From Saprospira grandis str. Lewin (GTDB lineage Bacteria > Bacteroidota > Bacteroidia > Chitinophagales > Saprospiraceae): DNA of 54,948 bases. A program made the position numbers and the translations under genes. Shown piece by piece: positions 17,294 through 50,530 of the stretch (within the stretch, counting starts at the first letter, position 1; each line of letters begins with the position of its first letter). The stretch covers positions 1 through 54,948 of the forward strand of contig NC_016936.1 in NCBI RefSeq assembly GCF_000250635.1. The letters run 5' to 3'. The notes beneath the pieces are model-generated. The model had not been told where the DNA came from. It made no database searches and saw only the letters and a list, made by a program, of their open reading frames with translations.

Positions 17294-18727
17294 ATGTGTG
17301 GAATTGTCGGTTTTTATGGAAAGCCCAATATTGTCTATGACTTAATGTTGGGGTTGAGTGCTTTGCAGCATCGGGGACAAGATGCGGCGGGCATTATTAC
17401 CTTTGAAAAAAGCTTTCATATCAAAAAGGGATTGGGCTTAGTCAATGATGTTTTTGCGCAGCGGCATGCCGATCGTTTGCGGGGAAATATTGGTTTGGGG
17501 CATGTGCGTTACACCACCCATGGCAGCAATGAACTCATTAACGCCCAGCCCATTGCGGCCAACTATCCTTTTGGGATTGCGATGGTGCACAACGGCAATG
17601 TGAGCAACTTTGAAGAAGTGCATAATCGCTTGTATAAGGAGTATCATATTTTGCCAGCGACCAGCAATGACCTAGAGCTTTTGCTCTATACTTTTAGCTC
17701 GGAATTGAATAAAAAAGACCTGGCCCAAATTGGTCCAGCCGATATATTTGATGCCGTTAGTGAGACCCAAAAAAAGGTCCATGGGGCTTATTCGGTCATT
17801 GCGGCCATTGCCAATCATGGACTTTTGGCCTTTTGCGACCCCAATGGGATTCGGCCCTTGGTTTTGGGCCAAAAAGAAGGGCCTGATGGGCAGCCCGTTT
17901 ATGGTTTTGCTTCGGAAAGCGTTTGTTTTGATCATTTGGGCTATACGCCCATTCGAGAATTGAAGGCGGGAGAAATTGTCTTTATTGATGAAAATCGCCA
18001 ATTGCATAGCAGCTTGGGCCATAAAACGGCCGATAAATTCTGTGTATTTGAGTTTATCTACTTTGCCCGAGAAGATAGCGAGCTGCAGGGCAAATTAGTA
18101 GCGGGCCAAAGAGTGAAGATGGGCAGAATGCTGGCCCAAAAAGTTCGAGAAATGGGCCTAGAAGCCGATATGGTTATTGATGTGCCTAGCTCGGGCTATT
18201 TTGCTGCATCGGGCTTGGCCGAGGCCTTAGACATTCCGTACAAAAGAGGCTTAGTCAAAAGCAATTATATTGGCCGCAGTTTTATTTCGCCTTCACAGGT
18301 AGAGCGAGAAGCCCTAGTTAAACGCAAGCTCAATCCTATAGCAAGGACCATCAAGGGGAAAAAATTATTGGTGGTCGATGATTCTATTGTTCGGGGCACC
18401 ACCTCCAAGCGGATCGTCCAAATTTTGCGAGAAGCTGGGGCCGAAAAAGTCTATTTTGTTTCGGCGGCGCCAGCCATCAAGCACCCTTGTATTTATGGCA
18501 TTGATATGTCGGTGAGTACAGAGTTACTGGCGGTGGGCCGCAGTGATGAAGAGATCTGCGATTACATTGGGGCCGATGCCTTGATTTATCAAAAATTAGA
18601 GGACCTAAAAGCTATTTTCGAGCATGCTGGTTTCTGCATGGCTTGTCTTGATGGGGCCTATCCCACTCCTGCCGCAAAAGAGGCTTTGGCCCAAATTGAA
18701 GCCGAGCGTTTGGCGATAAAGAAATAA
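17294..18727 (+). CDS. purF: Amidophosphoribosyltransferase
   Basis: First committed step of purine synthesis: PRPP plus glutamine gives phosphoribosylamine. The 477-aa protein starts MCGIVGFYG, with Cys2 as N-terminal nucleophile, so no propeptide. The Ntn glutaminase domain shows HRGQDAAGI, GHVRYTTHGSN and AMVHNGNVSN. The phosphoribosyltransferase domain has the PRPP loop VVDDSIVRGTTSKRIV near residues 360-375. Last gene of the cluster. Its TAA stop (18725-18727) is the first three bases of octamer array 3, so the repeat supplies the stop codon. PurF is normally feedback-inhibited by AMP and GMP. Confidence 0.97.
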   Translation: MCGIVGFYGKPNIVYDLMLGLSALQHRGQDAAGIITFEKSFHIKKGLGLVNDVFAQRHADRLRGNIGLGHVRYTTHGSNELINAQPIAANYPFGIAMVHNGNVSNFEEVHNRLYKEYHILPATSNDLELLLYTFSSELNKKDLAQIGPADIFDAVSETQKKVHGAYSVIAAIANHGLLAFCDPNGIRPLVLGQKEGPDGQPVYGFASESVCFDHLGYTPIRELKAGEIVFIDENRQLHSSLGHKTADKFCVFEFIYFAREDSELQGKLVAGQRVKMGRMLAQKVREMGLEADMVIDVPSSGYFAASGLAEALDIPYKRGLVKSNYIGRSFISPSQVEREALVKRKLNPIARTIKGKKLLVVDDSIVRGTTSKRIVQILREAGAEKVYFVSAAPAIKHPCIYGIDMSVSTELLAVGRSDEEICDYIGADALIYQKLEDLKAIFEHAGFCMACLDGAYPTPAAKEALAQIEAERLAIKK

Positions 18728-18796
18728 AGATTCCGTTATTTCTTTAATTAACGGAATCTTTATTTCGTTAAATCTTTAATTAAAGATTTCTTTATT
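18725..18796. repeat. Octamer array 3 (9 units)
   Basis: Nine 8-bp units: TAAAGA, CCGTTA, TCTTTA, TAACGG, TCTTTA, TCGTTA, TCTTTA, TAAAGA, TCTTTA with 2-nt linkers. Including the preceding AA, 18723-18738 and 18749-18764 form a perfect 16-bp stem with a 10-nt loop, which could end the purine transcript. It begins at the purF stop codon. Confidence 0.9.
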
Positions 18797-18856
18797 GACA
18801 CAAACAGCTATAAAACAGCCAGTTAACTAAAAACTGTATTTTATTATTTAGGATTT

Positions 18857-18989
18857 GGGGCCCGCGGCCGGCTAGCCTTTGGCTAGGTCGGCCGCCGCTA
18901 TGCTACGCGGCTCGCAGGTCTGCTCGGCCCTGCGGCGGCTGCGCCGCCTGGGTCTGGCCCTTCGGGCCACCGCTGCGCAGCGCTGGGCC
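18857..18989 (+). repeat. GC element 9, type C, forward
   Basis: Type C copy, recognised by GGGGCCCGCGGCC at the left and CCGCTGCGCAGCGCTGGGCC at the right. Stems are GGCCG/CGGCC with an inner GGCTAGCC/GGCTAGG-type helix, GGCGGctgcgCCGCC and GGCCCttcGGGCC. Confidence 0.88.
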
Positions 18990-19026
18990 AAAGGGAGGCC
19001 TAAGGGGGCCGAAAAAAGCAGAATAG

Positions 19027-19063
19027 AAAAGGGGAGCGCCTAAAAAATCAGGGCTCCCCTTTT
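19027..19063. terminator. Terminator-like hairpin after the purine cluster
   Basis: Stem AAAAGGGGAGC / GCTCCCCTTTT with a 15-nt loop, T-rich on the + strand exit. A second hairpin, GGCCGCTaaaaAGCGGCC, is at 19119-19136. Both lie between convergent units (purF and the secreted protein gene at 19201). The rest of 18990-19200 shows no gene. Confidence 0.65.
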
Positions 19064-19169
19064 GCTGTATTTCGGTTCTTTTTTGGCTCTATTTTGTCGC
19101 TTGTTTTTCCTGTTTTGAGGCCGCTAAAAAGCGGCCCAATAAGCTCTTTTTTCTGCCTTAAAATTTAAC

Positions 19170-19194
19170 AGGAAAAAGTTGAGGGACTAATAAA
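19170..19194 (+). repeat. 25-bp repeat shared with 46079-46103
   Basis: A 25-bp stretch containing GGAAAAAGTTGAGGGACTAA is found here and, inverted, at 46079-46103. Both copies lie within 200 bp of a type C GC element. The significance is unknown. Confidence 0.6.
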
Positions 19195-19200
19195 AACCCT

Positions 19201-20193
19201 TTACCAATTTAATTTAAAATTTTGGGTGATTGGATAATTTTGCAGAAACTCTTCTTTGGCCTCTGGGCCTTTGGCGGCCTTATAGACCTGCCAGAAAAAC
19301 TGCCAGAAGCTTTCTTTTTGGGCCACATAATCCTTGTGTTTTCGGGCAAAGGCATCTAGGCTAAAGATATCGGCTTTTTGCATACTGAGGCGATAAATAT
19401 AGAGATAGGCCAAATCGGACCAATAGCCTTTGGGGTGGCCCAGGCGATAGGTTTCAAAATCGCGGATGTTTGTACTATTGGCAATTTTGATAAAATCTTC
19501 GGCGGCCTGTTCATTTTGGATCGCCTTATTTTTAGGGAAGCGTTCTTCAAAACTGCCGTAGCTGCTCCAGCCGTAGAGTTGGGTATAGCTATCGAGCAGC
19601 GCCATTTGGAAGAGGCTATCTTCTTTGGGCGAGACAGAATCTAGGCTAGCTTGATGTTTTCTAAAATAGCGTTCATAGGTTCTAAAATCGTTAGTCATTT
19701 GGGCCAGAATCCAAGCTCGTTGATTTCGGGCATTTTCGATATGTTCTCGATGAGATTGAGAGGGAAATTTAAAGTTTTCGATGAGTTCTTGATAGGCGGC
19801 ATAGCTATTTTCTTTTTCGGCCTGGGCTTGGGCTTTTTGCAAAAGTTGGAGCTGCAGGCCCTCAATTTCTAGATGGCTCAACTTATTTTTTTGCAATTTG
19901 CGGATCCCTTTAGCATCTAGGGTAGCATATCGTCTTTGGGCTGATTTGGCATATTGAAAAGCCTGTTTGAGATTGAAGAACTCCTTGTATTTGGGGTTGG
20001 CAAAAATGCGGGCCAACTGATATTCGGCTTCTACGCCAATATATACTTTGGGGTCTAGGATACGGGCTTCAAAAAGTGTGATCGCCTCTTCGACCTCTCC
20101 TTTTTTGAGGGCCTTGTAGGCAGACTTAAACTGAGCAAAAAGCGGAGTTGCCCCTAAAAAAAGGGCAGCAATAAGAAGCAATTTAATTTTCAT
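19201..20193 (-). CDS. Secreted TPR-like protein of unknown function
   Basis: 330 aa, unrecognised at family level. The N-terminus MKIKLLLIAALFLGATPLFA followed by QF is a clear signal peptide. The mature protein is Lys/Glu-rich and helical, with A-K-x-G-E-x-EEAI and AEYQLARIFANPKYK segments that look like tetratricopeptide-type helix pairs near residues 25-80, and a repeated 'Y..F...H' theme later (AAYQELIENF, FRTYERYFRKH, FETYRLGHPKGYWSDLAY). No Cys-rich or enzymatic motif is visible. It could be a periplasmic scaffold. It is convergent with purF and separated from it by repeats. Confidence 0.7.
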   Translation of the reverse strand: MKIKLLLIAALFLGATPLFAQFKSAYKALKKGEVEEAITLFEARILDPKVYIGVEAEYQLARIFANPKYKEFFNLKQAFQYAKSAQRRYATLDAKGIRKLQKNKLSHLEIEGLQLQLLQKAQAQAEKENSYAAYQELIENFKFPSQSHREHIENARNQRAWILAQMTNDFRTYERYFRKHQASLDSVSPKEDSLFQMALLDSYTQLYGWSSYGSFEERFPKNKAIQNEQAAEDFIKIANSTNIRDFETYRLGHPKGYWSDLAYLYIYRLSMQKADIFSLDAFARKHKDYVAQKESFWQFFWQVYKAAKGPEAKEEFLQNYPITQNFKLNW

Positions 20194-20238
20194 AAAGCAC
20201 TATTTATCAGCAATTAAAATTTGTATATTTAATAGTGT

Positions 20239-20302
20239 TAAAGATTCCGTTATTTCTTTAAATCTTTAATTCTTTATTTAACGGAATCTTTATTTCGTTA
20301 AG
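20239..20302. repeat. Octamer array 4 (8 units)
   Basis: Eight units: TAAAGA, CCGTTA, TCTTTA, TCTTTA, TCTTTA, TAACGG, TCTTTA, TCGTTA with 2-nt linkers. 20239-20252 and 20279-20292 form a perfect 14-bp stem. It lies 45 bp upstream of the start of the secreted protein gene (20193). Confidence 0.88.
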
Positions 20303-20347
20303 TGATTGGGCAGGCGGCTTTGCCGCCTTGGCCTGCAGGGCCAAAAC

Positions 20348-20506
20348 GGCCTAGCGATGTGGAAGGGGGGCCGTTAGGCCAGACCGAGCCAGCTTGCTGG
20401 CGAAGGGCCGAGCAGGCCTGCGAGCCCTGAAACGACAACAAGGACTTTAGTCCGCAGTTCGACGACCAAAGGGAGTAACCGCCGCAGCTTCGCTGCGGCG
20501 GCCCCT
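20348..20506 (-). repeat. GC element 10, type A, reverse, with inserted cassette
   Basis: Inverted type A copy with stems GGCCgttaGGCC, CCAGCttGCTGG and GCCGCAGCttcGCTGCGGC. Between the last two is a segment of about 48 bp (20432-20479) containing CGACAACAAGG, an ACTTTAGT linker, CCGCAGTTCGACGACC and AAAGGGAGTAAC. The same cassette occurs twice in element 13. Confidence 0.85.
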
Positions 20507-20526
20507 AAAAAAGGGATAGATAAAAG

Positions 20527-20561
20527 AAATGCCCTAGTCCGGCAAAGGGATTAGGGCATTT
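20527..20561 (-). terminator. Terminator of the 43-aa membrane protein gene
   Basis: Ten-bp stem AAATGCCCTA / TAGGGCATTT with an inner short helix, followed on the - strand by a T-rich stretch. It starts 20 bp after the stop codon of the small gene at 20581. Confidence 0.7.
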
Positions 20562-20580
20562 CAAGAAAGGGGCCTAAAAA

Positions 20581-20712
20581 CTAGTTAGGCATAGGGAGCG
20601 AGTCGCCATTCATGCTATACACATAGGCCCAAAGGCTAATAAAAAGGATAAGAAAGAGGGCGAGGCCGAGGAGAAACTTTTCGGTTCCCCATACTTTTTG
20701 ATGATTGCTCAT
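20581..20712 (-). CDS. Small single-pass membrane protein (43 aa)
   Basis: A short gene with its own terminator. It reads MSNHQKVWGTEKFLLGLAL, then a hydrophobic run (LFLILFISLWAYVYS), then a polar tail MNGDSLPMPN. That gives one predicted membrane helix at about residues 13-33. The family is unknown. The flanking hairpin right after the stop codon and the clean helix make it a better candidate than chance. It could be a subunit of a membrane complex. A similar context of unattached small membrane proteins exists in Bacteroidetes, but I cannot assign one here. Confidence 0.55.
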   Translation of the reverse strand: MSNHQKVWGTEKFLLGLALFLILFISLWAYVYSMNGDSLPMPN

Positions 20713-20813
20713 TGTGGTTGTATTTTCAATAGTCAGAAATCTAAAGATTCAAGTGAAGGGCAAATTAAAGAAATAAGTCTAAAGAAGGCTTATTGGGAGG
20801 GGCAAAATTTGGC

Positions 20814-21770
20814 TTACTGCATGGCTTTTATTTTTTGAAAAATGCTTTTGAAGGCTCCTTTTCGGATCAATTGGCCGAGTTGTTTCCATCGGAGGCGTTT
20901 AAAGTAGAGCTTCATTTTTTCGGATACTATTTGATGTTGTTTTTGGCCATTTTTGGGGTGTATTTTTGTTAATTTCAGTGGTGTTTGAAGCATTTTTTGG
21001 CCTAATTCGATATCATCACAATTAGTTCCGCTACCATCTAGTCCAATATTTTTGACCAAAGATTGATAAGGGTGTAGAGCTAAGCCATTTTGGAGAAAAA
21101 TGCTAGCATGCCAATGACAATCCCAATTATCAAGTTCGCCAGAAATATTTTTTTTCAATTGTTTATAGAAACTATCTTTTTGTCCTCCATTAAAGGTAAA
21201 AGGGTCATAATTTTCATTGATTTGGGCTAAAATATTGGCTGTATCGTCTTGATAATATTTCCAGGCTCTTTGCCAGCTAGCCCAGCCCCAGCAGCTATTG
21301 ACATTATAAAAAAAGCTAGTTCCCAAGTCTTTTTCTTTTAGATTTAGGGGATAAATAAAGCCTCCGATATGCATTACTTCTTCAACATCTTGATAAAGGT
21401 CAAGTGCTTGATTCATATATTGAAGAAAATATGGGCTAACAACGATATCATTTTCTAGAATGATTGCTCTTCCGTGTTTTTCCATTACTTCGGTTACACC
21501 AGAAACGATATTATTAGATAAGCCCCAATTTTCTTTTCGCTCAATAATTTCGAGTTGTTTGGCCCATGTCTGTTGTCTAATCAACTGACGGACAGCCATA
21601 ATTTCAGCCAAATCCTCAGGACTAGCATCTGCCTTTGGTCCATCTGAATAAATGTAGATGGGGGTTTGGCTGGCCTCTTCATTTTTAGATAGCGCTGCTA
21701 ATGTCTGTGTCAAATGAGAAGGTCGTTGATAAGTAAAAAGGACAACTGGGGCCAAGGTTGATAAAGACAT
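20814..21770 (-). CDS. Glycosyltransferase, GT2/GT13-like
   Basis: 318 aa. The N-terminus APVVLFTYQRPSHLTQTLAAL is the start of a GT-A fold nucleotide-sugar-binding domain. IYSDGPK and RKENWGLSNNIVSGV follow. The acidic metal site is probably ILENDIVVSPYFL (about residues 97-109) in place of a DxD. CWGWASWQRAWKYY further on is seen in relatives annotated as sugar transferases similar to GNT-I. No membrane segment is present, so it is probably cytosolic and acts on a lipid-linked or surface glycan. The gene stands alone among non-glycan genes. The acceptor and sugar cannot be inferred. The coding sequence is more AT-rich in places than its neighbours, which may suggest separate acquisition. 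Confidence 0.8.
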   Translation of the reverse strand: MSLSTLAPVVLFTYQRPSHLTQTLAALSKNEEASQTPIYIYSDGPKADASPEDLAEIMAVRQLIRQQTWAKQLEIIERKENWGLSNNIVSGVTEVMEKHGRAIILENDIVVSPYFLQYMNQALDLYQDVEEVMHIGGFIYPLNLKEKDLGTSFFYNVNSCWGWASWQRAWKYYQDDTANILAQINENYDPFTFNGGQKDSFYKQLKKNISGELDNWDCHWHASIFLQNGLALHPYQSLVKNIGLDGSGTNCDDIELGQKMLQTPLKLTKIHPKNGQKQHQIVSEKMKLYFKRLRWKQLGQLIRKGAFKSIFQKIKAMQ

Positions 21771-21831
21771 AAGTTTATGGGTTGAAGCTAATTTTAAAAT
21801 TTGTGTTAGGCAGTTAAGCGTAAAAATGTTA

Positions 21832-21839
21832 CAAACATA
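21832..21839 (-). promoter_or_regulatory. Candidate -7 box for the glycosyltransferase gene
   Basis: CAAACATA on the + strand reads TATGTTTG on the - strand, a perfect TAnnTTTG match about 62 bp upstream of the start codon. No clear -33 TTTG was seen. Confidence 0.4.
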
Positions 21840-21959
21840 TCAAAAAAGTTTGTTATAAATTATCATCTAGACTCTATTTGAACGTTAGTTTCATCAGCTG
21901 TTAATAATACTATTACTGCTTGAAAAGAACGCCTATTTTCACAACTTAATAACTAGATC

Positions 21960-22106
21960 GCAAGGCTTTTTACAAAGCCTTCTTAGAGATAGCCAAAGTA
22001 ATTAGTTGGAAAACTGTAGTGATTAAATTAGACAGCGCTTCACTACTCAAAAAAGTAGTTTAACTTGCCACAAGTTCTACTATTGAATTATATATAGAAG
22101 CGCTGT
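21960..22106. other. Candidate structured RNA or leader upstream of the OmpA-family gene
   Basis: No gene is visible in 21771-22152. Within it are a hairpin AAGGCTTtttacAAAGCCTT (about 21962-21981) and a longer fold. A perfect 10-bp outer stem ACAGCGCTTC (22032-22041) / GAAGCGCTGT (22097-22106) encloses two hairpins, ACTACTcaaaaaAGTAGT and AACTTgccacAAGTT. That is a three-way-junction layout. It could be a leader of the gene at 22153 or a small RNA. Confidence 0.4.
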
Positions 22107-22152
22107 ATCTTAAAGGCCCCGATATCAGAACACCTATAATTTATTATTACAA

Positions 22153-23052
22153 ATGAGAAGAATAAGCTTTTGGCTCTTTTTGCTCCTCCTATTATGCAGT
22201 ACAAAAAGTTGGGGCCAAAAAACAGCTTTTGCTGTAGAACTAGCCGCCTTTGAACAACAAGTAGAACTCAATTATTTTGGTCCAATCAAAGGAGTTTATG
22301 AGCTCTATGATGTCAATGACTTTTATCGCTATCAAATTCCGGCCAAAACAAAAGCCGAGGCCGAAGTCTTATTGGCCGAAGTAAGAGCGGGTAAATTCCC
22401 CTATGCTCGCATCATTGATTTTAAGGCCAGAGAAGAGGCTTGTAAAAATTCTTGTGGCTTTTGGGCCCCAAAATATACTGGTCGAAACAATGATAATGAC
22501 CAACAAGAAGAAGCTTGGGCCAATACCCCAAAAGCCAATCCCCCCAATCAACTTTTGGCCCCCAAACCCAAAAAAACAGCCCTAGCCGCCCCCAAAGAAA
22601 AACGAAGTTTGGGCAGTTTGGCCGCCCCAGAAAGAGGGCTGAGCTCGGCTATATTTTTTGATTTTAATAGCAGCGATATTCCCGCAGAAGAAGGCTATAA
22701 GATCAACTATATCAGCGATCTGATGATCAAAAACCCAGAATATACTTTGGTGCTCGATGGTCATTCGGATGCCATTGGGGAAGAAGATAAAAACCTTAAT
22801 CTCTCTAAAGAACGACTCGAAAAAGTAATGCTCAGCCTCTTTATGAAAGGAGTAGAAGGCGAACGCATGCGAATTCGCCCCCAAGGCGAATTGGCTCCCA
22901 TTGCCATCAATGAGTATCCCAATGGCAGCGATAGCCCAGAAGGCCGGCGATATAATCGCCGAGTTCAGCTTCAATTATTAGATGAAAATGGAGAAGAATT
23001 GCCCGTTTTGGCCCCCATTGAGATTCCCGCACAGCTTAAAATTGAAGAATAA
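22153..23052 (+). CDS. OmpA-family outer-membrane-associated protein
   Basis: 299 aa. A signal peptide (RRISFWLFLLLLLCSTKSWG, then Q) is followed by a region of about 70 residues resembling a SPOR-like fold (YELYDVNDFYRYQI, then AKTKAEAEVLLAEVRAGKFPYARI). A Pro/Lys-rich linker comes next (about 115-155). The C-terminal OmpA domain (about 165-285) includes AIFFDFNSSDIP, LVLDGHSDAIGEEDKNLNLSKERLEKV and the closing GRRYNRRVQLQ. The OmpA domain binds peptidoglycan, with the Asp of GHSD and the Arg of NRR as expected contacts. It probably ties the outer membrane to the cell wall. It is convergent with kynA. Confidence 0.85.
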   Translation: MRRISFWLFLLLLLCSTKSWGQKTAFAVELAAFEQQVELNYFGPIKGVYELYDVNDFYRYQIPAKTKAEAEVLLAEVRAGKFPYARIIDFKAREEACKNSCGFWAPKYTGRNNDNDQQEEAWANTPKANPPNQLLAPKPKKTALAAPKEKRSLGSLAAPERGLSSAIFFDFNSSDIPAEEGYKINYISDLMIKNPEYTLVLDGHSDAIGEEDKNLNLSKERLEKVMLSLFMKGVEGERMRIRPQGELAPIAINEYPNGSDSPEGRRYNRRVQLQLLDENGEELPVLAPIEIPAQLKIEE

Positions 23053-23073
23053 AACAGCATTTTTAAGCAAAAA

Positions 23074-23103
23074 AAGGGCCTTTCGACAAGTCGAAAGGCC
23101 CTT
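23074..23103. terminator. Terminator between the OmpA-family gene and kynA
   Basis: Fourteen-bp perfect stem AAGGGCCTTTCGAC / GTCGAAAGGCCCTT with a 2-nt loop. The poly-T run is on the - strand exit, so it mainly serves kynA and may also stop the convergent gene. Confidence 0.85.
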
Positions 23104-23117
23104 GCTATTTCCCCAAA

Positions 23118-24509: not shown

Positions 24510-24565
24510 TAAAGAATTAAAGAAATAAAGAATTCTTTATTTCTTTAATTCTTTATTTCTTTATT
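24510..24565. repeat. Octamer array 5 (7 units, near-perfect palindrome)
   Basis: Seven units: TAAAGA, TAAAGA, TAAAGA, TCTTTA, TCTTTA, TCTTTA, TCTTTA with 2-nt linkers. It contains no TAACGG words. 24510-24532 and 24533-24555 are exact reverse complements, giving a 23-bp perfect palindrome with no loop. It lies 82 bp upstream of the parA start. Confidence 0.9.
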
Positions 24566-24647: not shown

Positions 24648-25286
24648 ATGCCCGTCAAAATAGGGGTCGTCTCCCAAAAAGGAGGCGTCGGAAAAAGTAC
24701 GCTCTGCCGCCTGCTCGCCAGAGAATATGCCGCCAACGACTGGGAAGTCAAAATTGCCGATATGGACGTCTCTCAGTCCACTTCTTTCAATTGGAATAGC
24801 CGCCGATTACAACAAAATATTCAACCCGCTATCTCTGTAGAACAGTTTGCCGAGGTCAAAAGAGCCCTCAAACTTAGCCAAAATCACGACCTCATTATCT
24901 TTGATGGCGCCCCCAGTTCTAACCGCCTTACCCTAGAAATTGCCCAAACTGCCGACCTCATTCTACTGCCTACTGGCACCGCTCTAGACGATCTAGAACC
25001 CACCATTAAGTTGGCCCATGAACTCAAAAAACGTAAGATTCCACGCCAAAAAATTGCCCTGGTCCTCTCCAGAATCGGTACCTCCAAAGCCGAAATCGAA
25101 GAGGCCAAAGATTATATTTCTATCACCGGATATACCCTAATTGATGGCCTGCTAGAAGAAAAAACAGCCTACCGTAGAGCTAGCGATTTAGGCCAAGCAC
25201 TTACCGAAACACCCTACCCCAGCCTCAATGAAAAAGCCGATTTTTTGGTCCAAAATATTATCAATTATCTCAATAAATTAGGCTGA
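24648..25286 (+). CDS. parA: ParA-type partition ATPase
   Basis: Deviant Walker ATPase that moves plasmid copies apart. From the ATG at 24648 the protein is 212 aa. An upstream frame to 24564 runs into the octamer array and is rejected. The deviant Walker A is SQKGGVGKSTLCR at about residues 9-21, A' is ADMDVSQSTSFNW (about 41-53), and Walker B is LIIFDGAPSS (about 85-94). There is no N-terminal helix-turn-helix, so this is the short type Ib form, which works with a ribbon-helix-helix partner. The downstream 76-aa protein fits that role. The space between the two carries regularly spaced AAAACGAC repeats. It is the first gene of a replication and partition module. Confidence 0.9.
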   Translation: MPVKIGVVSQKGGVGKSTLCRLLAREYAANDWEVKIADMDVSQSTSFNWNSRRLQQNIQPAISVEQFAEVKRALKLSQNHDLIIFDGAPSSNRLTLEIAQTADLILLPTGTALDDLEPTIKLAHELKKRKIPRQKIALVLSRIGTSKAEIEEAKDYISITGYTLIDGLLEEKTAYRRASDLGQALTETPYPSLNEKADFLVQNIINYLNKLG

Positions 25287-25585: not shown

Positions 25586-25816
25586 ATGGCCAAAATACCC
25601 GCTCCAAAAAAGCTAAAAAGTAGCAAAGGACAGCCCCCAAAAGAAGAAAATAGCAGCAAAAATTTGGAAAAAAGACCAAAAAAAGAACGTGTCGCACTCA
25701 ATTTTTCAGTCGATGCTGACTTCAGAAAAGCTCTAAAATCCGCTGCCCTAGAAGAGGAAATTTCTATGGTAGAGTTACTCAAAAAAATGTTCGATTTTTA
25801 TCAAAATAAACCCTAA
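25586..25816 (+). CDS. Ribbon-helix-helix partition protein (ParB/ParG-like)
   Basis: 76 aa. The first 33 residues are Lys/Pro-rich and probably disordered. Then comes RVALNFSVDADFRKALKSAALEEEISMVELLKKMFDFY, which fits a ribbon (VALNFSV) followed by two helices, the MetJ/Arc/CopG fold. Such proteins bind direct repeats as dimers and stimulate ParA through a flexible basic N-terminal tail, which matches the layout here. It lies 299 bp after parA, with the 22-bp-pitch repeats in the gap, and is followed by a terminator. Its role as centromere binder is inferred from fold and position. Confidence 0.8.
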   Translation: MAKIPAPKKLKSSKGQPPKEENSSKNLEKRPKKERVALNFSVDADFRKALKSAALEEEISMVELLKKMFDFYQNKP

Positions 25817-26330: not shown

Positions 26331-26404
26331 TCTTTAACAACAATACTTTTCTATATTTTCCGACCCCGCAACTAGTTGATTGTCAGCGAGTTACAAAGGC
26401 TAAC

Positions 26405-26522
26405 AACGACGGATTTGGGGTGTTCGAACGACGGATTTGGGGTGTTTTTGGTTTTTAACGACGACGGATTTGGGGTGTCGAACGACGGATTTGGGGTTAA
26501 AAACGACAAATTTGGGGTGTTT
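26405..26522 (+). repeat. Replication origin iterons (five copies)
   Basis: Five copies of an iteron with core ACGACGGATTTGGGGTGT. The ACGAC of each starts at 26406, 26428, 26461, 26482 and 26503, so steps are 22, 33, 21 and 21 bp, all close to whole helical turns. The last copy has AAA in place of GGA. They lie immediately upstream of two DnaA boxes and the Rep gene, the classic iteron-plasmid origin. Confidence 0.9.
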
Positions 26523-26576
26523 TTTACCCTTCAAATTGCAGTTTTTTTTTGGCGCTGCGTTGATAATGCCGTTTTT

Positions 26577-26646: not shown

Positions 26647-28017
26647 ATGGAACGAAAAAACGAAAGACAAGTCTCCTCAACAGTTAGAGAAGCCAACGAG
26701 CTGATTGAAGCCAGCTACCGATTTTCGGTCTGGGAGGATCGGATTTTTTTGCTCACCCTCTCGCAGATTCAAGCCGAGGATGACGACTTCAAAATTTACA
26801 AAATCTACGTCAAGGATCTGGCCCGAGAATATGGGTTGGCCACCAAAAGCGTCTACGAGAATATTCGGGAGGCGGTCTCTTCCCTGCAGCGCAAAACCAT
26901 CAGCATCCCTTTTCGCTTTGACGAGGGGCCCGGAAAACTGACCACCAGCTTTTTCACTTCCTTCGGCGAATTGGATCAATCGGATTTTAGCCACATCCTG
27001 GTGGAGCTGCACCCCAAGCTCAAGCCCTACCTGCTGCAGCTCAAGGAGCGATTCACCCAGTACAACATCTCCTTCCTCGTCCGCATGCAGAGCCACTACT
27101 CCAAGCGGATCTACAAACTTCTCAAACAGTACCACCCTTTGAGTAAACGCAGAATTAGTATTCAGCAGCTCAAGCAAATTTTGCAAATCGAGCCCGAGGA
27201 GTACAAGCGCTACTTCGACTTCAAGCGCAGGGTAATCCTCAAGGCCCAAGAAGACCTGGCCGAGTACACGGACCTGAAGTTTGAGTTTGAGGAGGAGCGA
27301 AAGGGCCGAAAGGTGCAGGCCATTTTGTTCACAATTGCTACCAACGAGAAAAACGAAATTGAGAGTAGCCCCGCCCCCAAAAGCAAATCTCCCAAAAAAT
27401 TGCAAGCCGCCCCCAGCCAAGGCAAGCTCTCGGCCGAGGCCAAAAAACTTTTTGAGCAAGTGGAGCATTGGGGGCTCTCGCAGCAGGATTTTGAAAAATA
27501 CCTCAAGCAGAAAACCCAAGAGGAATTTCAAACTTGCATCGACCTAACCCTGCAAAACGAAAAAGTCAAAAATCGGGTGGCTTACTTGGTGAGTTTACTT
27601 AAAAAAGAAAATTTGAAGGCCGTCAAAAAGTTACCTGATTCTGGCAAACGACCTGTGCTCAAAAATTCCTTTCACGAGGAATTCAAAAAATTGGAGAAGG
27701 AGCACCAGCAGCAGGTGAGCCAATGCCGAGCGCATTACCACCGGCTGGCCCAAGCCGAGATTCAGCGCCAGCTCCAAGATGGCCCAAGCATCGAGCGCTT
27801 CATCAGCCAGTTTAGAGCCCAGAACTCCTGGATGCCCCTCAACCTGCAGGCCTTCCGCCAAGAGTTTGCCGAGAGCCGAATGTTTCAGGGGCGGGTCTAC
27901 AACCTCTTCCGGCTGGTGCTACCCAAATTGCCCGAACTGGAGCAAAAACGAGAATTGAAGATCAAAACGATGGAAAAAGAATTCTGGGCTTTGGTTCGCA
28001 AGCTGAGGAATGCCTAA
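26647..28017 (+). CDS. Plasmid replication initiator, Rep_3 (RepB/RepE-like) family
   Basis: Binds the iterons and opens the origin. 456 aa. The N-terminal half matches the two winged-helix domains of Rep_3 initiators: ANELIEASYRFSVWEDRIFLLTLSQI, then YKIYVKDLAREYGL, YENIREAVSSLQRKTI, and LLQLKERFTQYNISFLVRM-QSHYSKRIYKLLKQY, with QILQIEPEEYKRYFDFKRRVILKAQEDL-type residues in the second domain. The C-terminal 200 residues are Lys/Gln-rich and helical and exceed the usual length of about 230-330 aa. Codon use is richer in C/G-ending codons than in the metabolic genes, which may mean a different origin. Five iterons and two DnaA boxes precede it. Three 210-bp repeats follow it. Confidence 0.92.
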   Translation: MERKNERQVSSTVREANELIEASYRFSVWEDRIFLLTLSQIQAEDDDFKIYKIYVKDLAREYGLATKSVYENIREAVSSLQRKTISIPFRFDEGPGKLTTSFFTSFGELDQSDFSHILVELHPKLKPYLLQLKERFTQYNISFLVRMQSHYSKRIYKLLKQYHPLSKRRISIQQLKQILQIEPEEYKRYFDFKRRVILKAQEDLAEYTDLKFEFEEERKGRKVQAILFTIATNEKNEIESSPAPKSKSPKKLQAAPSQGKLSAEAKKLFEQVEHWGLSQQDFEKYLKQKTQEEFQTCIDLTLQNEKVKNRVAYLVSLLKKENLKAVKKLPDSGKRPVLKNSFHEEFKKLEKEHQQQVSQCRAHYHRLAQAEIQRQLQDGPSIERFISQFRAQNSWMPLNLQAFRQEFAESRMFQGRVYNLFRLVLPKLPELEQKRELKIKTMEKEFWALVRKLRNA

Positions 28018-28819: not shown

Positions 28820-28883
28820 TAAAGATTTCTTTATTTAACGGAATCTTTATTTCTTTAAATCTTTAATTAAAGAATTCGTTAAA
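28820..28883. repeat. Octamer array 6 (8 units)
   Basis: Eight units: TAAAGA, TCTTTA, TAACGG, TCTTTA, TCTTTA, TCTTTA, TAAAGA, TCGTTA with 2-nt linkers. It ends 14 bp before the stop codon of the Hpt-like gene on the - strand, where it may act as a terminator. Confidence 0.88.
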
Positions 28884-37329: not shown

Positions 37330-37393
37330 TAAAGAAATAAAGATTCCGTTATTTCTTTAATCCGTTAATTCTTTATTTAAAGAAATCTTTATC
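37330..37393. repeat. Octamer array 7 (8 units)
   Basis: Eight units: TAAAGA, TAAAGA, CCGTTA, TCTTTA, CCGTTA, TCTTTA, TAAAGA, TCTTTA with 2-nt linkers. It ends 5 bp before the paaD start codon, so it would occupy the ribosome landing region of the mRNA. Confidence 0.9.
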
Positions 37394-41888: not shown

Positions 41889-41952
41889 TAAAGATTTCTT
41901 TAATTAAAGAAATAAAGAATTAACGGATTAAAGATTTAAAGAAATAAAGAAG
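41889..41952. repeat. Octamer array 8 (8 units), abutting the paaZ start codon
   Basis: Eight units: TAAAGA, TCTTTA, TAAAGA, TAAAGA, TAACGG, TAAAGA, TAAAGA, TAAAGA with 2-nt linkers. The last unit (TAAAGAAG) is followed directly by the ATG of paaZ, so the array is the 5' UTR. It is mostly one-directional and can form only a short hairpin. Confidence 0.9.
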
Positions 41953-44019: not shown

Positions 44020-44052
44020 ATTTGGGCGTAGAGGCGGGCCGAAGGCCCGCCT

Positions 44053-44172
44053 GGCCTAGCGATGTGCAGCAGTGGCCGTCAGGCCAGACCGAGCCAGTTT
44101 TACTGGCGAAGGGCCGAGCGAACAGCGAGCTGCGAAACGTAGCGCCGACGAGCGAAGTGAGGCGGAGGCCCC
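44053..44172 (-). repeat. GC element 19, type A, reverse
   Basis: Inverted type A copy between paaZ and the crotonase gene. Stems are GGCCgtcaGGCC, CCAGttttaCTGG and a longer imperfect third stem. Confidence 0.87.
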
Positions 44173-44206
44173 AAAACATTAAAATATAGTATAAAAACGA
44201 GATAGC

Positions 44207-44980: not shown

Positions 44981-44995
44981 GCAAAAGCGAAAAAG

Positions 44996-45598: not shown

Positions 45599-45601
45599 AT
45601 G

Positions 45602-45631
45602 AAAAAGCCCCTACAATTGTAGGGGCTTTTT
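45602..45631 (+). terminator. Terminator of the paa unit
   Basis: Perfect palindrome AAAAAGCCCCTACAA / TTGTAGGGGCTTTTT followed by more T and A. It begins 4 bp after the paaY stop codon and also faces the convergent XRE gene. Confidence 0.9.
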
Positions 45632-45636
45632 TATGG

Positions 45637-46005
45637 CTAAGTTGTTTCTGTTTCTCTAAAAGAGAATTGAATATCAATGTTTAATCCAGCTAAAATCTTT
45701 AAAAGAGAGGAGAATTGAATATCTGCCTTTTTATTTTCTACTCTTGAGATATAGCTTGCTTTTAGTCCTGTTTTTTCGGCTATATTTTCTTGCGTGAGCC
45801 CTGCCTGCTCCCTTATTTCTTTGATTAGCCCAAATATTTCCATGGCTTTGTCTTGACGAGCACTAATATTTTCGGCAGGAATTTCATTCATCTCCTCATT
45901 AAAATGCATAAGCAAACTAGCAGTGCTAAAATTTGCTCTTTCCTTTGTATTAGGAGCGCCATACTTTTGACTAATTAGTTCATTGACAGTAGTTATTTTC
46001 TTCAT
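45637..46005 (-). CDS. XRE-family HTH protein, orphan HigA-like
   Basis: 122 aa. The C-terminal half contains a Cro/CI helix-turn-helix, IREQAGLTQENIAEKTGLKASYISRVENKKADIQFSSLLKIL, then LNIDIQFSF. Such proteins are often antitoxins of HigBA type. I looked for a RelE/HigB partner upstream (46006-46170) and found none; that stretch only has short frames. So it may be an orphan antitoxin or a stand-alone regulator. It is convergent with paaY. Confidence 0.75.
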   Translation of the reverse strand: MKKITTVNELISQKYGAPNTKERANFSTASLLMHFNEEMNEIPAENISARQDKAMEIFGLIKEIREQAGLTQENIAEKTGLKASYISRVENKKADIQFSSLLKILAGLNIDIQFSFRETETT

Positions 46006-46078
46006 AGAATTTTATTTTTTGCTTGTTTGCAATAGCTATGTGCCTGTTATAATCTTTAGTTCCTTTTTTTGTCTAAAA

Positions 46079-46103
46079 TTTATTAGTCCCTCAACTTTTT
46101 CCT
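46079..46103 (-). repeat. 25-bp repeat shared with 19170-19194
   Basis: Exact inverted copy of the 25-bp sequence at 19170, 68 bp before type C element 20. The flanks do not match. Confidence 0.6.
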
Positions 46104-46170
46104 TTTAATAAAAAGAAGTGGAAAAGCCATTAAAGCTGCTTTTATAGGAGGGGAGCTAGCTGTATAATTT

Positions 46171-46294
46171 GGGGCCCGCGGCCAGCAAAGCTGGCCGCCG
46201 CTATGCTGCGCGGCTCGCAGGTCTGCTCGGCCCTGCAGCCGCCTTTGGCGGCTTGGGTCTGGCCCTTTGGGCCACCGCTGCGCAGCGCTGGGCC
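46171..46294 (+). repeat. GC element 20, type C, forward
   Basis: Type C copy and left arm of a composite (46171-46735). Stems are GGCCagcaaagctGGCC, AGCCGCCtttGGCGGCT and GGCCCtttGGGCC. The remaining stretches of 46006-46801 hold arrays and element 21 but no gene. Confidence 0.9.
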
Positions 46295-46465
46295 GCTCAT
46301 CCATTTTTTTCAGTCTATCTTTTCTCTTTGGCCGTCTTTTGATAAAAATTTTAAGCTGGTCAAGGCATTTTTTTAAGGCATGACTGCTCATCTTTTGTAC
46401 AAACTTTTGGTCCAATGGTTTCGGCTTTTAGTGCTAAATTCTTGATTTATAGGGGTTAATAGCAA

Positions 46466-46545
46466 TAAAGAAATCTTTAATTAAAGAAATAACGAAATAA
46501 AGATTCCGTTAAATAAAGAATTAAAGAAATAACGGAATCTTTATT
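46466..46545. repeat. Octamer array 9 (10 units)
   Basis: Ten units in the order TAAAGA, TCTTTA, TAAAGA, TAACGA, TAAAGA, CCGTTA, TAAAGA, TAAAGA, TAACGG, TCTTTA with 2-nt linkers. 46496-46511 and 46530-46545 form a perfect 16-bp stem. Same word order as arrays 1, 10 and 11. Confidence 0.92.
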
Positions 46546-46569
46546 GCCTACATGGACCAATTTTGCATC

Positions 46570-46735
46570 TAGAGGCGGCTTTGCCGCCTAGCTGTGGGTG
46601 TTCACCCACAGCATCGGCTGAGGGATGGGCAGCAGTGGCCCGAAGGGCCAGACCCAGGCGGCGCAGCCGCCGCAGGGCCGAGCAGACCTGCGAGCTGCGA
46701 CACAGCCCGACCCGCCCGCAGGGCGGGGCAGCCCC
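46570..46735 (-). repeat. GC element 21, type B, reverse
   Basis: Inverted type B copy and right arm of the composite. Extra hairpins GGCGGctttgCCGCC and CTGTGGGtgttcaCCCACAG are at its left. Core stems are GGCCCgaaGGGCC, GGCGGCgcaGCCGCC and CCGCCCgcaGGGCGG. Confidence 0.9.
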
Positions 46736-46801
46736 AAAAGAAAAAAGCCCTTCCCCAAAAAAGGAAGAGCTTTATAAACTGAGTATTTTGCTTGCCCTAA
46801 A

Positions 46802-47455
46802 TTAGGGAGTGGCTACGGCCAAAGAGGGAAAAATACCGGCCAAAATGGGGCGCAAACCGCTGAGGAAAAACTCTACGGCGATCACCATAACGATGAGGCC
46901 CATTAGGCGGAGCATAATTTTATTGCCCGTTTCGCCCAGCCATTTCGAGATAGTTGAAGAGGTATATAAAATGGCATAAGTGAGGGCTAGAATAAGGGCC
47001 ATACTGCCAATGAGAATAAATTTTTGAGCAATATTATCGGCATCCTGCATCAGGATGATCGAGTTGGTGATTGCGCCGGGGCCACAAATAAGCGGAATGG
47101 CCAGGGGCGTAATGGAAATATCGGTAACATAAGATTTTACCTCTTCCTCTCGGACCTTAATGCGGCCCAAGCGGGCTTGCAACATATCGGAGCCCATTTG
47201 GAAAAAGATGATTCCGCCCACAATGCGAAAAGCATTGGCCGAAATACCAAAAAAGGAAAACAAAAGCTGCCCAGAAAGAGCAAAGGCCAACATGGTTAGG
47301 AAGGCGGCAATGACGGCTTTTTTTGCTGTGGCCCGCTGCTGTTGTTTTGTCAATTCGCTGGTCATGGTCATAAAGACAGGCATTGTGCTTAGCGGATTGA
47401 CAATAGAAAAGTAGGAGGTGAAGGCCAAAAGGCCAAAAGCCAAGTTTTCGCTCAT
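46802..47455 (-). CDS. MarC-family integral membrane protein
   Basis: 217 aa with about six membrane helices. Family motifs are FSIVNPLSTMPVFMTMT near the N-terminus and DISITPLAIPLICGPGAITNSIILM in the middle. These repeats (NPxxxxP and PLAIPxxxGPGAI) define the MarC/UPF0056 group, whose transport role is not established. A TAnnTTTG box lies 46 bp upstream. It stands apart from its neighbours and is divergent from the Lrp gene. Confidence 0.9.
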   Translation of the reverse strand: MSENLAFGLLAFTSYFSIVNPLSTMPVFMTMTSELTKQQQRATAKKAVIAAFLTMLAFALSGQLLFSFFGISANAFRIVGGIIFFQMGSDMLQARLGRIKVREEEVKSYVTDISITPLAIPLICGPGAITNSIILMQDADNIAQKFILIGSMALILALTYAILYTSSTISKWLGETGNKIMLRLMGLIVMVIAVEFFLSGLRPILAGIFPSLAVATP

Positions 47456-47500
47456 TGTAGTTGTTTTTTATTGCGAATTAGTTGGATTTGTTTTGCGGGG

Positions 47501-47508
47501 CAAATCTA
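47501..47508 (-). promoter_or_regulatory. Candidate -7 box for the MarC gene
   Basis: CAAATCTA on the + strand reads TAGATTTG on the - strand, a perfect TAnnTTTG match, giving a leader of about 40 nt. No clear -33 TTTG was seen. Confidence 0.4.
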
Positions 47509-47668
47509 GAGCAGCGGACTAGATTTTTAGCGTTTTTTTCTGAAAAAAATCTATATTTAGAAAATTGAACTGCTAAACTACTTTTTAGCAGGAAATATTT
47601 TCTTTTACCTACTCAAAAAGGCCCTGCCAAAGTAATTTTCCCCTTATTTAAAGAAAACATTAAGCCGC

Positions 47669-48130
47669 ATGAAACTGGACCCCACTGATTTGAAGATTTT
47701 GCAACTTTTGCAAGCCGACGCCAAGTTAAGCATCAAAGAAATCTCGGCCGATTTGGGCCTGAGCAGCACGCCTGTCTACGAGCGCATCAAGCGCTTGGAA
47801 AAGCGAGGATATATTAAAGGTTATGTGGCCTTGGTCAATCGGCGAAAAGTAGAAATGGGCCTAATGGCCTTTCTCTCGGTCTCCCTAAAAGAGCATTCGC
47901 AAATGGCCCTACTCAAATTTGAGCAAGAGATCATAAAATTCCCTAAAGTGATGGAGTGTTATCATATTGCGGGACAATATGACTTCATCCTCAAGATTGT
48001 GGTCCGCGATATGCAAGATTATCACGACTTCACTTTTAATCGCTTAGCGGCCATGGATAATATTGGGCATGTGCAGACCGATTTTGTGATGAATGACATT
48101 AAGTACTCGACAGAAATCCCTTTAGATTAA
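47669..48130 (+). CDS. Lrp/AsnC-family transcription regulator
   Basis: 153 aa. The N-terminal HTH is LKILQLLQADAKLSIKEISADLGLSSTPVYERIKRLEKRGYIKGYVALV. The C-terminal RAM (ligand) domain has MECYHIAGQYDFILKIVVRDMQDYHDF. The asnC/lrp family senses amino acids or related ligands. The gene is the first of its direction and has no obvious operon partner. It may regulate neighbouring genes, but no operator was found. Confidence 0.92.
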   Translation: MKLDPTDLKILQLLQADAKLSIKEISADLGLSSTPVYERIKRLEKRGYIKGYVALVNRRKVEMGLMAFLSVSLKEHSQMALLKFEQEIIKFPKVMECYHIAGQYDFILKIVVRDMQDYHDFTFNRLAAMDNIGHVQTDFVMNDIKYSTEIPLD

Positions 48131-48264
48131 AACAATATGTTTTAAAAAAGGACCAGTATTTTTTTCAAGCAGCAACAACTTGCTGAAAACTAGGCTGTAA
48201 AGCGCTTTTAGCTTCTTTTTGGACCAACATACAGCAGAGCGATAGCGGCAAAAAGTTGGAATTT

Positions 48265-48297
48265 CTTGCGGAATTGAAACAAATTGTTTTAAATTTG
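48265..48297 (+). promoter_or_regulatory. Candidate promoter of the glucosaminidase gene
   Basis: TAAATTTG (48290-48297) matches TAnnTTTG perfectly. CTTG at 48265-48268 is a 3/4 match to -33 TTTG at 21-bp spacing. The start codon is 47 bp further. Confidence 0.45.
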
Positions 48298-48343
48298 TGT
48301 AGGAAATGGCAACTCATCTTGCTCACCAATCAAAACAATCGCT

Positions 48344-49258
48344 ATGCTTGAAAAAAATCTCAGCCTTTTGCGCCACAATATTGCTGTGGTCTGGAAAAAC
48401 CCCAAAAGCTTGCTCATTTATCCACGACAAATGAGCAGAAAAGCCAAATTTCAATGGGTAGTTTTAGGCAGTTTGGCCTTTTTGCTCTCTCAAAGAGAAC
48501 TGTCTTTTCAGTTATCTTTATCTGTACCCGAAGTTTTAGAAACTGGCCAAGCCGAATTGCCCCCAAGCACAGCTCGTCCACAACTTGCTGCAATACAAGC
48601 TGTTGCCAAGCCTTGGTGGAAACAGATTAAAGAAAAATCTAAAGACATTAGAGATAAACTCAATTTGGCCAATGCCGCAACTGCTGTAGGTGCCGCTTTG
48701 AGCACAGAACAACAAGCCGAGGCCGCCAAATATTCTAATTTGGGCTTTGTGCTCAATCCAACTTTACCCAAACGCTTGGGCGTATCGGCTGAAGTCGTTG
48801 CTTTTAAGACAAAAAAGTGTACAGATTATGTAGATAAATACGCCAAAATTGCTGTAGAAGAAATGGAGCTTTACGGTATACCCGCAAGTATTACTTTGGC
48901 TCAGGGTTTATTGGAAAGCAATGCCGGCGATAGCCGATTGGCCAAAAATGAAAACAATCATTTTGGCATCAAATGCAAGAAAAAATGTTTAGGCTGCCGA
49001 TGTGCTAACTATACCGACGACGATAAATATGATATGTTTCGCATTTTTGAATCGCCCTGGTACAGCTTTAGAGAACATAGCAAATTGCTACAAGGCAAAC
49101 GTTATAAGCACTTATTAAAACTAGAAATTACAGATTATAAAAACTGGGCCCGTGGCTTACAATCTGCTGGCTATGCGACCAATCCAAAATATGGCGTTAC
49201 CCTTATCGAAATTATAGAAAAACTGAACCTACAACGTTTTGACAAGGCTGCAAATTAG
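48344..49258 (+). CDS. Membrane-anchored glucosaminidase (FlgJ/LytD-like)
   Basis: 304 aa. There is a single membrane segment near residues 36-50 (FQWVVLGSLAFLLS), a linker with an Ala-rich stretch, and a C-terminal glucosaminidase domain (about 160-300). The domain shows YAKIAVEEMELYGIPASITLAQGLLESNAG, with Glu191 as expected acid catalyst, and FGIKCKKKCLGCRC, RIFESPWYSFREHSKLL. The four Cys in 211-220 (CKKKCLGCRC) are unusual and may form disulfides or bind metal. It likely trims peptidoglycan in the periplasm. A terminator follows. Confidence 0.9.
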   Translation: MLEKNLSLLRHNIAVVWKNPKSLLIYPRQMSRKAKFQWVVLGSLAFLLSQRELSFQLSLSVPEVLETGQAELPPSTARPQLAAIQAVAKPWWKQIKEKSKDIRDKLNLANAATAVGAALSTEQQAEAAKYSNLGFVLNPTLPKRLGVSAEVVAFKTKKCTDYVDKYAKIAVEEMELYGIPASITLAQGLLESNAGDSRLAKNENNHFGIKCKKKCLGCRCANYTDDDKYDMFRIFESPWYSFREHSKLLQGKRYKHLLKLEITDYKNWARGLQSAGYATNPKYGVTLIEIIEKLNLQRFDKAAN

Positions 49259-49286
49259 AGCTGCTGATTGTTAATTTTTCAAGCCG

Positions 49287-49320
49287 AAGGGCCCTAGATT
49301 TTTTCTAGGGCCCTTTTTTG
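49287..49320 (+). terminator. Terminator of the glucosaminidase gene
   Basis: Twelve-bp perfect stem AAGGGCCCTAGA / TCTAGGGCCCTT with a 5-nt T loop and six T residues. Confidence 0.9.
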
Positions 49321-49344
49321 TTGGTTTTCAACTACTTAGATCAA

Positions 49345-49424
49345 TAAAGAAATCTTTAATTAAAGATTTAACGAAATAAAGATTCCGTTAAATAAAGAAT
49401 TAAAGAAATAACGGAATCTTTATT
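49345..49424. repeat. Octamer array 10 (10 units), supplies the resolvase stop codon
   Basis: Ten units in the order of arrays 1, 9 and 11: TAAAGA, TCTTTA, TAAAGA, TAACGA, TAAAGA, CCGTTA, TAAAGA, TAAAGA, TAACGG, TCTTTA. 49375-49390 and 49409-49424 form a perfect 16-bp stem. It stands without flanking GC elements. The TTA at 49420-49422 is the stop codon of the resolvase gene on the - strand. Confidence 0.92.
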
Positions 49425-50085
49425 TTTTTGGTTCATCTTTTTTACGCCAGCCCTTTTGTTTGAGCCATCGATTGAGGTTGGAGGGGGTGGTTTTATAGCG
49501 GTCGGCAATATAACGTTGGCTGCTGCCCTGGGCCAAAAGCGCTTGAATTTCGGGCCAAAAAGGATCGAGTTTAGAGCGGCCGGGTCCTTTGGGGCGGCCC
49601 AAAGGCAGGCCCTTAGCTTTGCGTGCGGCCAGGGCTTCTTTGGTTCGCTGGGCAATCAGGTCGCGCTCAATTTCGGCGGCCATAGAAAAGACCAGGGCCA
49701 TAATTTTACTCTGCAAACTTTCGTCGAGTTGCCAGCCGCCCTTGACCGCATAAATCCGAATTCCTTTTTTGAGGGCCAATTGCAAGACCTCCATAATTTC
49801 CAACATCGAGCGGCCAATCCGAGAGAGCTCATTGACGATGATCGTATCGCCTTGCTCCAATTCTTCAATAATTTGGCCCAGCCAGCGCTCCCGCCAATTT
49901 TTTCGGCCCGATACTTTTTCGGCAATAAAAAAGACCTTGCCCAAATTTTTATCATTGGCCAAAAAGAGAATCTCGGCCTTATTTTTCTCTAAATTTTGTT
50001 CTTTTGTAGACACCCGCAGGTAGGCCAATGCCTTTGCGCCTTTTTGCTGCTTAAATTTTTGCCAAACGGCCTGATTTTCTGCCAT
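49420..50085 (-). CDS. Serine recombinase / resolvase
   Basis: 221 aa from the ATG at 50085. The N-terminal catalytic domain has ALAYLRVSTKEQ with nucleophile Ser26, then DTIIVNELSRIGRSMLEIMEVL with the Arg residues of the active site, and the long helix SMAAEIERDLIAQRTKEALAARKAKG. The C-terminal HTH is SQRYIADRYKTTPSNLNRWLKQKGW. This is the small resolvase/invertase type, suited to resolving plasmid multimers or inverting DNA. The stop codon lies inside octamer array 10. A 10-bp inverted repeat lies upstream and might be a recombination or operator site. Confidence 0.9.
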   Translation of the reverse strand: MAENQAVWQKFKQQKGAKALAYLRVSTKEQNLEKNKAEILFLANDKNLGKVFFIAEKVSGRKNWRERWLGQIIEELEQGDTIIVNELSRIGRSMLEIMEVLQLALKKGIRIYAVKGGWQLDESLQSKIMALVFSMAAEIERDLIAQRTKEALAARKAKGLPLGRPKGPGRSKLDPFWPEIQALLAQGSSQRYIADRYKTTPSNLNRWLKQKGWRKKDEPKK

Positions 50086-50167
50086 AATGCTGCTTTTGCT
50101 CCAAAATTCGCTAAAAACCATTAAAGCCCTAGTTTTTAGACAACTTTTATTGTTAATTTATCCGTGA

Positions 50168-50197
50168 ATTATTTTATCATTTTTATTATAAAATAAT
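50168..50197. repeat. Inverted repeat upstream of the resolvase gene
   Basis: ATTATTTTAT (50168-50177) and ATAAAATAAT (50188-50197) are exact inverted copies around a 10-bp spacer, 83 bp upstream of the resolvase start. It is a candidate res subsite or operator. Confidence 0.45.
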
Positions 50198-50227
50198 GGA
50201 GGGTTTTTAATGAATTTTTTTGGATTT

Positions 50228-50351
50228 GGGGCCCGCGGCCAGCTTTGCTGGCCGCCGCTATGCTTCGCGGCTCGCAGGTTTGCTCGGCCCTGCAGCCGCC
50301 TGTGGCGGCTTTGGTCTGGCCCTTCGGGCCACCGCTGCGCAGCGCTGGGCC
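50228..50351 (+). repeat. GC element 22, type C, forward
   Basis: Type C copy and left arm of a composite (50228-50759). Stems are GGCCagctttgctGGCC, GCCGCCtgtGGCGGC and GGCCCttcGGGCC. There is no gene in 50122-50775. Confidence 0.9.
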
Positions 50352-50450
50352 AAATAAACGCTTTGCGCTTTGGCCATTTTTTGTATAAAATTTTGGTCCA
50401 ATTGCTTCAACGCAAAAGCTAAACAGCTGATTTATAGCATTTAGCAGCAA

Positions 50451-50530
50451 TAAAGAAATCTTTGATTAAAGATTTAACGAAATAAAGATTCCGTTAAATA
50501 AAGAATTAAAGAAATAACGGAATCTTTATT
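50451..50530. repeat. Octamer array 11 (10 units)
   Basis: Same ten-word order as arrays 1, 9 and 10, with one base change in the second word (TCTTTG). 50481-50496 and 50515-50530 form a perfect 16-bp stem. Confidence 0.92.

Follow-up and report, generated by a model that had tools for sequence, protein, structure and literature searches.

Plasmid pSM19035 carries one of the closest described counterparts of the system considered here, consisting of a small ParA (delta), a ribbon-helix-helix (RHH) ParB (omega), and the centromere parS (PMC9499535). According to the same source, pSM19035 has six parS sites, each made of 7–10 consecutive non-palindromic 7-bp repeats in either orientation, and these overlap the promoters of copS, delta, and omega; full activation of the ParA ATPase needs at least four contiguous repeats, and RHH partition complexes cannot spread into flanking DNA (PMC9499535). 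In TP228, the RHH protein ParG carries N-terminal tails that lack structure, and its centromere parH is built of degenerate tetramer boxes with AT-rich spacers. Here, we analyze eleven arrays of 8-bp units (octads) on a plasmid of Saprospira grandis str. Lewin (NC_016936.1, contig C2; the window, which is the entire contig of 54,948 bases). We consider it probable that these arrays are bound by the plasmid's own small RHH protein, encoded at 25586–25816, and that they are the parS sites and operators of a ParABS system. The original prediction, made from the letters alone, had described the arrays and knew of no family with such a structure, a statement that was too strong in view of the contiguous repeats reported for pSM19035 (PMC9499535).

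Octad arrays on the Saprospira plasmids

The genome consists of two contigs totaling 4,400,185 bases, the other contig being 4.35 Mb long. Close relatives of the window in PLSDB are the plasmids of Saprospira grandis WH (NZ_CP110855.1, 53,161 bp), from which the gene context of the arrays was taken, and Saprospira sp. CCB-QB6 (NZ_CP116809.1, 53,242 bp), and a fourth array-bearing replicon is a contig of 56,635 bp in S. grandis DSM 2844. The arrays of the window, none of which is assigned to a strand, are as follows:

237–314: array 1, 10 units, one imperfect
5549–5610: array 2, with 7 exact units beginning at 5557 and an imperfect one at 5549, in the divergent gap between guaB and the purine genes
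18717–18794: array 3, 10 units, overlapping the end of purF
20239–20300: array 4, 8 units
24510–24563: array 5, 7 units, a putative centromere and operator of parA, whose start is 84 bp further downstream
28820–28881: array 6, 8 units, in a convergent gap
37330–37391: array 7, 8 units, 7 bp upstream of paaD
41889–41950: array 8, 8 units, 2 bp upstream of paaZ
46466–46543: array 9, 10 units, in a convergent gap
49345–49422: array 10, 10 units, in a convergent gap next to a recombinase gene
50451–50528: array 11, 10 units, one imperfect, in a divergent gap

All eleven lie almost wholly between genes and keep an exact 8-bp period, with 96 units by the detector's count. Exact words make up 94 of these (TAAAGA/TCTTTA, TAACGG/CCGTTA, and TAACGA/TCGTTA, with both orientations mixed), the imperfect ones being TGAAGA in array 1 and TCTTTG in array 11, and the linkers are AA, TT, or AT. 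Register, words, A/T linkers, and the 7–10 units per array therefore agree with what had been predicted. Most predicted starts also hold, but the array placed at 18725 truly begins at 18717, and the one placed at 5549 is exact only from 5557, since its first unit (TGACGG, one mismatch) is excluded from the 96. Arrays 1, 9, 10, and 11 do share a common word order, as claimed, up to one linker and the two mismatched units, and arrays 1, 9, and 11 also have their downstream flank in common.

Two of the checks proposed with the prediction came out in its favor. Arrays were absent from Markov shuffles of order 1 (0/24) and order 5 (0/24), each set comprising eight shuffles at each threshold of 3, 4, and 5 exact words, so that the arrays exceed what composition would give. 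In the genome-wide search, all 41 matches to a same-direction two-unit pattern fell on the plasmid and none on the 4.35-Mb contig, and the same pattern read backwards as a control gave 3 matches. With respect to gene direction, the arrays of WH occupy 4 tandem, 4 convergent, and 3 divergent gaps; because this split is near the intergenic length of each type, array placement seems to ignore gene direction.

Exactly eleven arrays are present in each of the four Saprospira plasmids, amounting to 44 arrays of 5–11 units; exact words account for 359 of the 364 units. The linkers are AA (129), TT (107), AT (82), CT (1), and CA (1), and TA does not occur (0/320). The arrays change slowly: between the window and WH, substitutions amount to 0.9% in arrays vs. 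7.0% in the 150-bp flanks, and between the window and CCB-QB6 to 2.1% vs. 12.8%, i.e., a rate 6–8 times below that of the flanks. In alignments across the arrays and their 40-bp flanks (30 of 33 array pairs from three plasmids), gap lengths were divisible by 8 in 12/16 cases within arrays compared to 1/22 in flanks. Therefore, words and register are conserved while units are gained and lost.

The DSM 2844 plasmid contains an inverted segment with one junction at an array (27410–27495 of that contig), both flanks of which match the left flanks of the window arrays at 237 and 18717; the second junction, which is less well defined, is likewise near an array (47597–47682). Since one or both ends of this inversion fall in an array, it looks as if arrays had recombined. 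The flanks of the arrays at 237, 5557, 37330, 41889, 46466, and 50451 match the sister plasmids at two or more places, indicating that repeats adjoin the arrays.

The parA gene, its probable RHH neighbor, and octads in other lineages

Downstream of array 5 are two genes of a putative partition module:

24648–25286, + strand: parA, Walker-box ATPase of 212 aa with KGGVGKS (AAA_31, 46.2 bits, cut-off 27)
25586–25816, + strand: probable RHH gene, 76 aa, putative centromere-binding ParB (weak profile and fold scores)

As in RHH-type ParABS systems, this ParA is small and of Walker type, with AAA_31 above its cut-off, and a repeat array lies near par, both in the window, where array 5 precedes parA, and in relatives, where octads are found near par. 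Against the ParA_partition profile, the protein scored 98.7 bits, below the cut-off of 180. The model of the 76-aa protein has a disordered tail followed by helices at 44–56 and 61–73, in the order expected for RHH. The monomer model holds no strand; in RHH proteins, the strand forms between two chains. Foldseek placed ParG (1p94, 76 residues) in the first row with an E-value of 1.1, and most of the best 50 of 58 rows, with E-values above 1, are RHH proteins by name; the RHH part of MatP is also among the fold matches. A profile search of PDB gave three matches up to E 1, namely 9kkd (RHH, CopG family), ParG (E 0.13, below significance), and 2kel (“Uncharacterized protein 56B”), and the best NCBIfam row was PrgO (E 0.014, 15.6 bits, cut-off 100). 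Taken with the model, these matches suggest that the 76-aa protein probably has an RHH fold. All 14 PLSDB records with a relative of this protein annotate it as “hypothetical protein.”

The octads co-occur with the parA-RHH pair beyond this plasmid. Within the genus, the RHH gene is present in 4/6 genomes and arrays in those same four; the two genomes without the gene, both drafts, have one isolated match and none, respectively (Fisher p 0.067). Across the order, an RHH relative was found in 13/396 genomes, and a three-unit pattern occurs in 6/13 genomes with the gene vs. 10/383 without it (Fisher p 2e-6). In the nine RHH-bearing genomes outside the genus, 20 of 22 two-unit matches are on the contig of the RHH gene (3/3, 3/3, 8/8, 5/5, 1/1, 0/1, and 0/1, with no matches in two genomes), compared to 0, 1, and 0 such matches in three genomes that lack the gene.

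A scan of genome contigs found 32 RHH relatives, assigned by title to Saprospiraceae, Acidobacteria, Gamma- and Alphaproteobacteria, Chlorobi, and others; in 28 of them, the RHH gene has a ParA P-loop upstream. Among word spacings of 6–85 bp no more than 1.5 kb from the gene, 266/392 are multiples of 8; this count comes from 27 loci (the 32 relatives minus Saprospira and four near-duplicates), several of which are close kin and not independent cases. Period 8 is the best of periods 6–14 near the gene in 19/32 loci, one of them tied and four near-duplicates. Runs of three or more exact octads, with one missing unit allowed, are present in 14/32 relatives, and of the 52 runs outside Saprospira, 47 lie no further than 1.5 kb from the RHH gene (0.0 expected). 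Shewanella sairae, for example, has arrays of three to six direct TAACGAAT units.

Among the 14 PLSDB records, seven from outside Saprospira were read, and period 8 is best near the RHH gene in six, with one tied. For these plasmids and the phages, runs were called with one mismatch allowed per unit and with more words than in the scan of 32 relatives. Three Nostoc loci (2, 1, and 3 runs) and a Halomonas locus (3 runs) have all of them near par; the Tunicatimonas locus has no runs in the word scan, from which Asticcacaulis was left out. Dispersed arrays of the same words are found in Vibrio and Aliivibrio phage-plasmids: 7 runs over 41 kb in the phage-plasmid of Vibrio sp. HDW18 (0.05 expected), 7 over 40.6 kb in Aliivibrio phage H905 (0.2 expected), and 10 spread over 15.6 kb of a 40-kb stretch in a V. 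campbellii plasmid with phage genes (0.15 expected). The arrays of HDW18 and H905 are mostly between genes, although intergenic DNA is only 13% and 10%, respectively; one H905 array has 18/38 bases inside genes. The stretch from Vibrio phage VPHZ6 has one run (0.15 expected), and no run was found in one E. coli plasmid relative.

Proposed mechanism and alternative explanations

The adjoining parA-RHH module and the octad association in other lineages support two ideas of the original prediction, a protein-binding array and a segregation mark. We propose that one RHH dimer would occupy each 8-bp word, whichever way the word points, and that binding would be cooperative between adjacent dimers along the gapless array. 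Every Saprospira array has at least five units, compared to the four repeats needed in pSM19035. Array 5 would then be both par operator and centromere, and the other ten arrays would be additional parS sites around the plasmid, allowing each molecule to engage nucleoid-bound ParA through many partition complexes and, possibly, to stimulate its ATPase. Multiple complexes might thereby secure a replicon holding the only copy of purH. This gene (10962–12626 in the window) has one copy per genome in 6/6 Saprospira genomes searched and is on the array-bearing plasmid in all four that have such a plasmid; because of this, cells short of purines may depend on the plasmid. The cargo of the sister plasmids comprises purine and pyrimidine genes and a phenylacetate operon.

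Several observations weigh against this proposal. No run of three or more octads was found in 18/32 RHH relatives, some of which seem, by eye, to use other words. Conversely, uniform octamer tandems exist in genomes lacking the RHH gene: neither an RHH match nor a P-loop open reading frame (ORF) was found in 16 stretches at three-unit matches from ten such genomes, nor in three stretches at two-unit matches in other genomes. One contig of 9 kb has six direct TCGTTATT units (L085:2302–2347), with no RHH match in the genome and no P-loop ORF on the contig. A tandem octamer alone is therefore no proof of a par system. An alternative is that the RHH protein binds the arrays but, away from parA, mainly controls transcription, with the par protein repressing or buffering a regulon that extends over the plasmid, comparable to the control by omega of genes with parS in their promoters. 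In line with this, one array lies 2 bp from the start of paaZ and another 7 bp from that of paaD, and three occupy divergent gaps. The parS sites of pSM19035 likewise overlap promoters (PMC9499535). However, 4/11 arrays are in convergent gaps and, in a comparison made without a promoter scan, the split by gap type tracks intergenic length. Since the arrays of WH occupy tandem, convergent, and divergent gaps, promoter control is probably not their sole use, and we regard this regulon as an unlikely main function.

It is also conceivable, if rather improbable, that the RHH protein folds, bridges, or compacts the plasmid via the arrays, as MatP does at matS, with partition as a by-product. The sites do lie all round the replicon, and MatP is among the fold matches; yet 76 aa of tail and two helices leave no space for a second domain, and the gene follows a ParA P-loop in most relatives, as noted above. 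We consider it very unlikely that recombination has spread the arrays as selfish or neutral tandem octamers to which no protein binds. The four arrays with one word order, three of them with a common downstream flank, the octamer tandems in RHH-less genomes, and the rearrangement end that coincides with an array would all fit such spreading, but evidence against it comes from substitution far slower than in the flanks, mixed words in both orientations, eleven arrays in each of four plasmids, and the parA-RHH association elsewhere. That the arrays are RNA hairpins, such as terminators, is hardly credible: among the five of eleven arrays that were folded, those at 24510 (z −7.7) and 46466 (z −5.2) fall far below shuffles and those at 28820 (z −2.9) and 37330 (z −2.3) do so moderately, in partial agreement with the many perfect stems that had been predicted, but the array at 41889 shows no such drop (z −1.25), a related array built solely of direct units (L062:2893–2938) folds no better than shuffles, and two arrays stand just before start codons, all of which also speaks against the earlier idea of a transcription end.

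Downstream of the putative par genes are features of replication:

26393–26518, + strand: five iteron-like repeats, putative origin; four contain ACGACGGATTTGGGGT and the fifth differs by two bases; 21–33 bp apart, before the Rep3-type initiator gene
26647–28017, + strand: Rep3-type replication initiator, 456 aa

In addition, TTGTGGATAACT occurs twice near the initiator gene, at 26576 and 26598, and ACGAC motifs also recur in the interval between parA and the RHH gene.

Comparison with known partition systems

Extending the proposal that the arrays are parS sites, we tentatively suggest a “many-centromere” type of replicon, an idea that we hold to be possible but more doubtful than not. A ParA-RHH family with an octad code (TAAMGR and variants) would occur in Bacteroidota, Cyanobacteria, Gammaproteobacteria, and phage-plasmids, with dozens of octads tiling some replicons; partition, plasmid shape, and control of par-linked genes would form a single distributed system in which the strength of a site depends on the type and orientation of its words. 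The octads provide a readable candidate code for DNA binding by a widespread family of partition proteins, and natural replicons offer putative centromere numbers ranging from local to plasmid-wide. It could be tested why a sole-purH replicon or a phage-plasmid should disperse its centromere, and whether RHH complexes, which do not spread according to PMC9499535, are multiplied over the replicon instead.

With regard to PrgP/PrgO, PrgO is the best NCBIfam row of the RHH protein, but its score is far below the cut-off. Partition sites scattered over a replicon are known from the distributed centromeres of N15 (SopB) and the KorB sites of RK2, and the Saprospira arrays resemble them in this respect; the difference is that those systems use HTH-type ParB proteins and palindromic sites. 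MatP has an extra helical domain beside its RHH part and its matS sites are on the chromosome; the Saprospira protein, by comparison, consists of a tail and two helices, and the two-unit octad pattern is absent from the other contig. A possible likeness to TP228 ParF-ParG-parH comes from weak matches to ParG, in both the profile and Foldseek searches, and from an octad that, set beside the description of parH, can be read as a 4-bp core with A/T bases; the excerpted descriptions of TP228 make no mention of dispersed sites. pSM19035, as described in PMC9499535, is similar in its contiguous repeats in both orientations, its 7–10 repeats per site, as in the window, and its several sites. Its repeat is WATCACW with period 7, whereas the Saprospira arrays have period 8 and words TAAAGA, TAACGG, and TAACGA with A/T linkers, and its six sites compare to eleven around the whole Saprospira replicon. 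Overall, these arrays differ from the known RHH centromeres of pSM19035 and TP228 in their octad, in their words, and most of all in their spread over the entire replicon.

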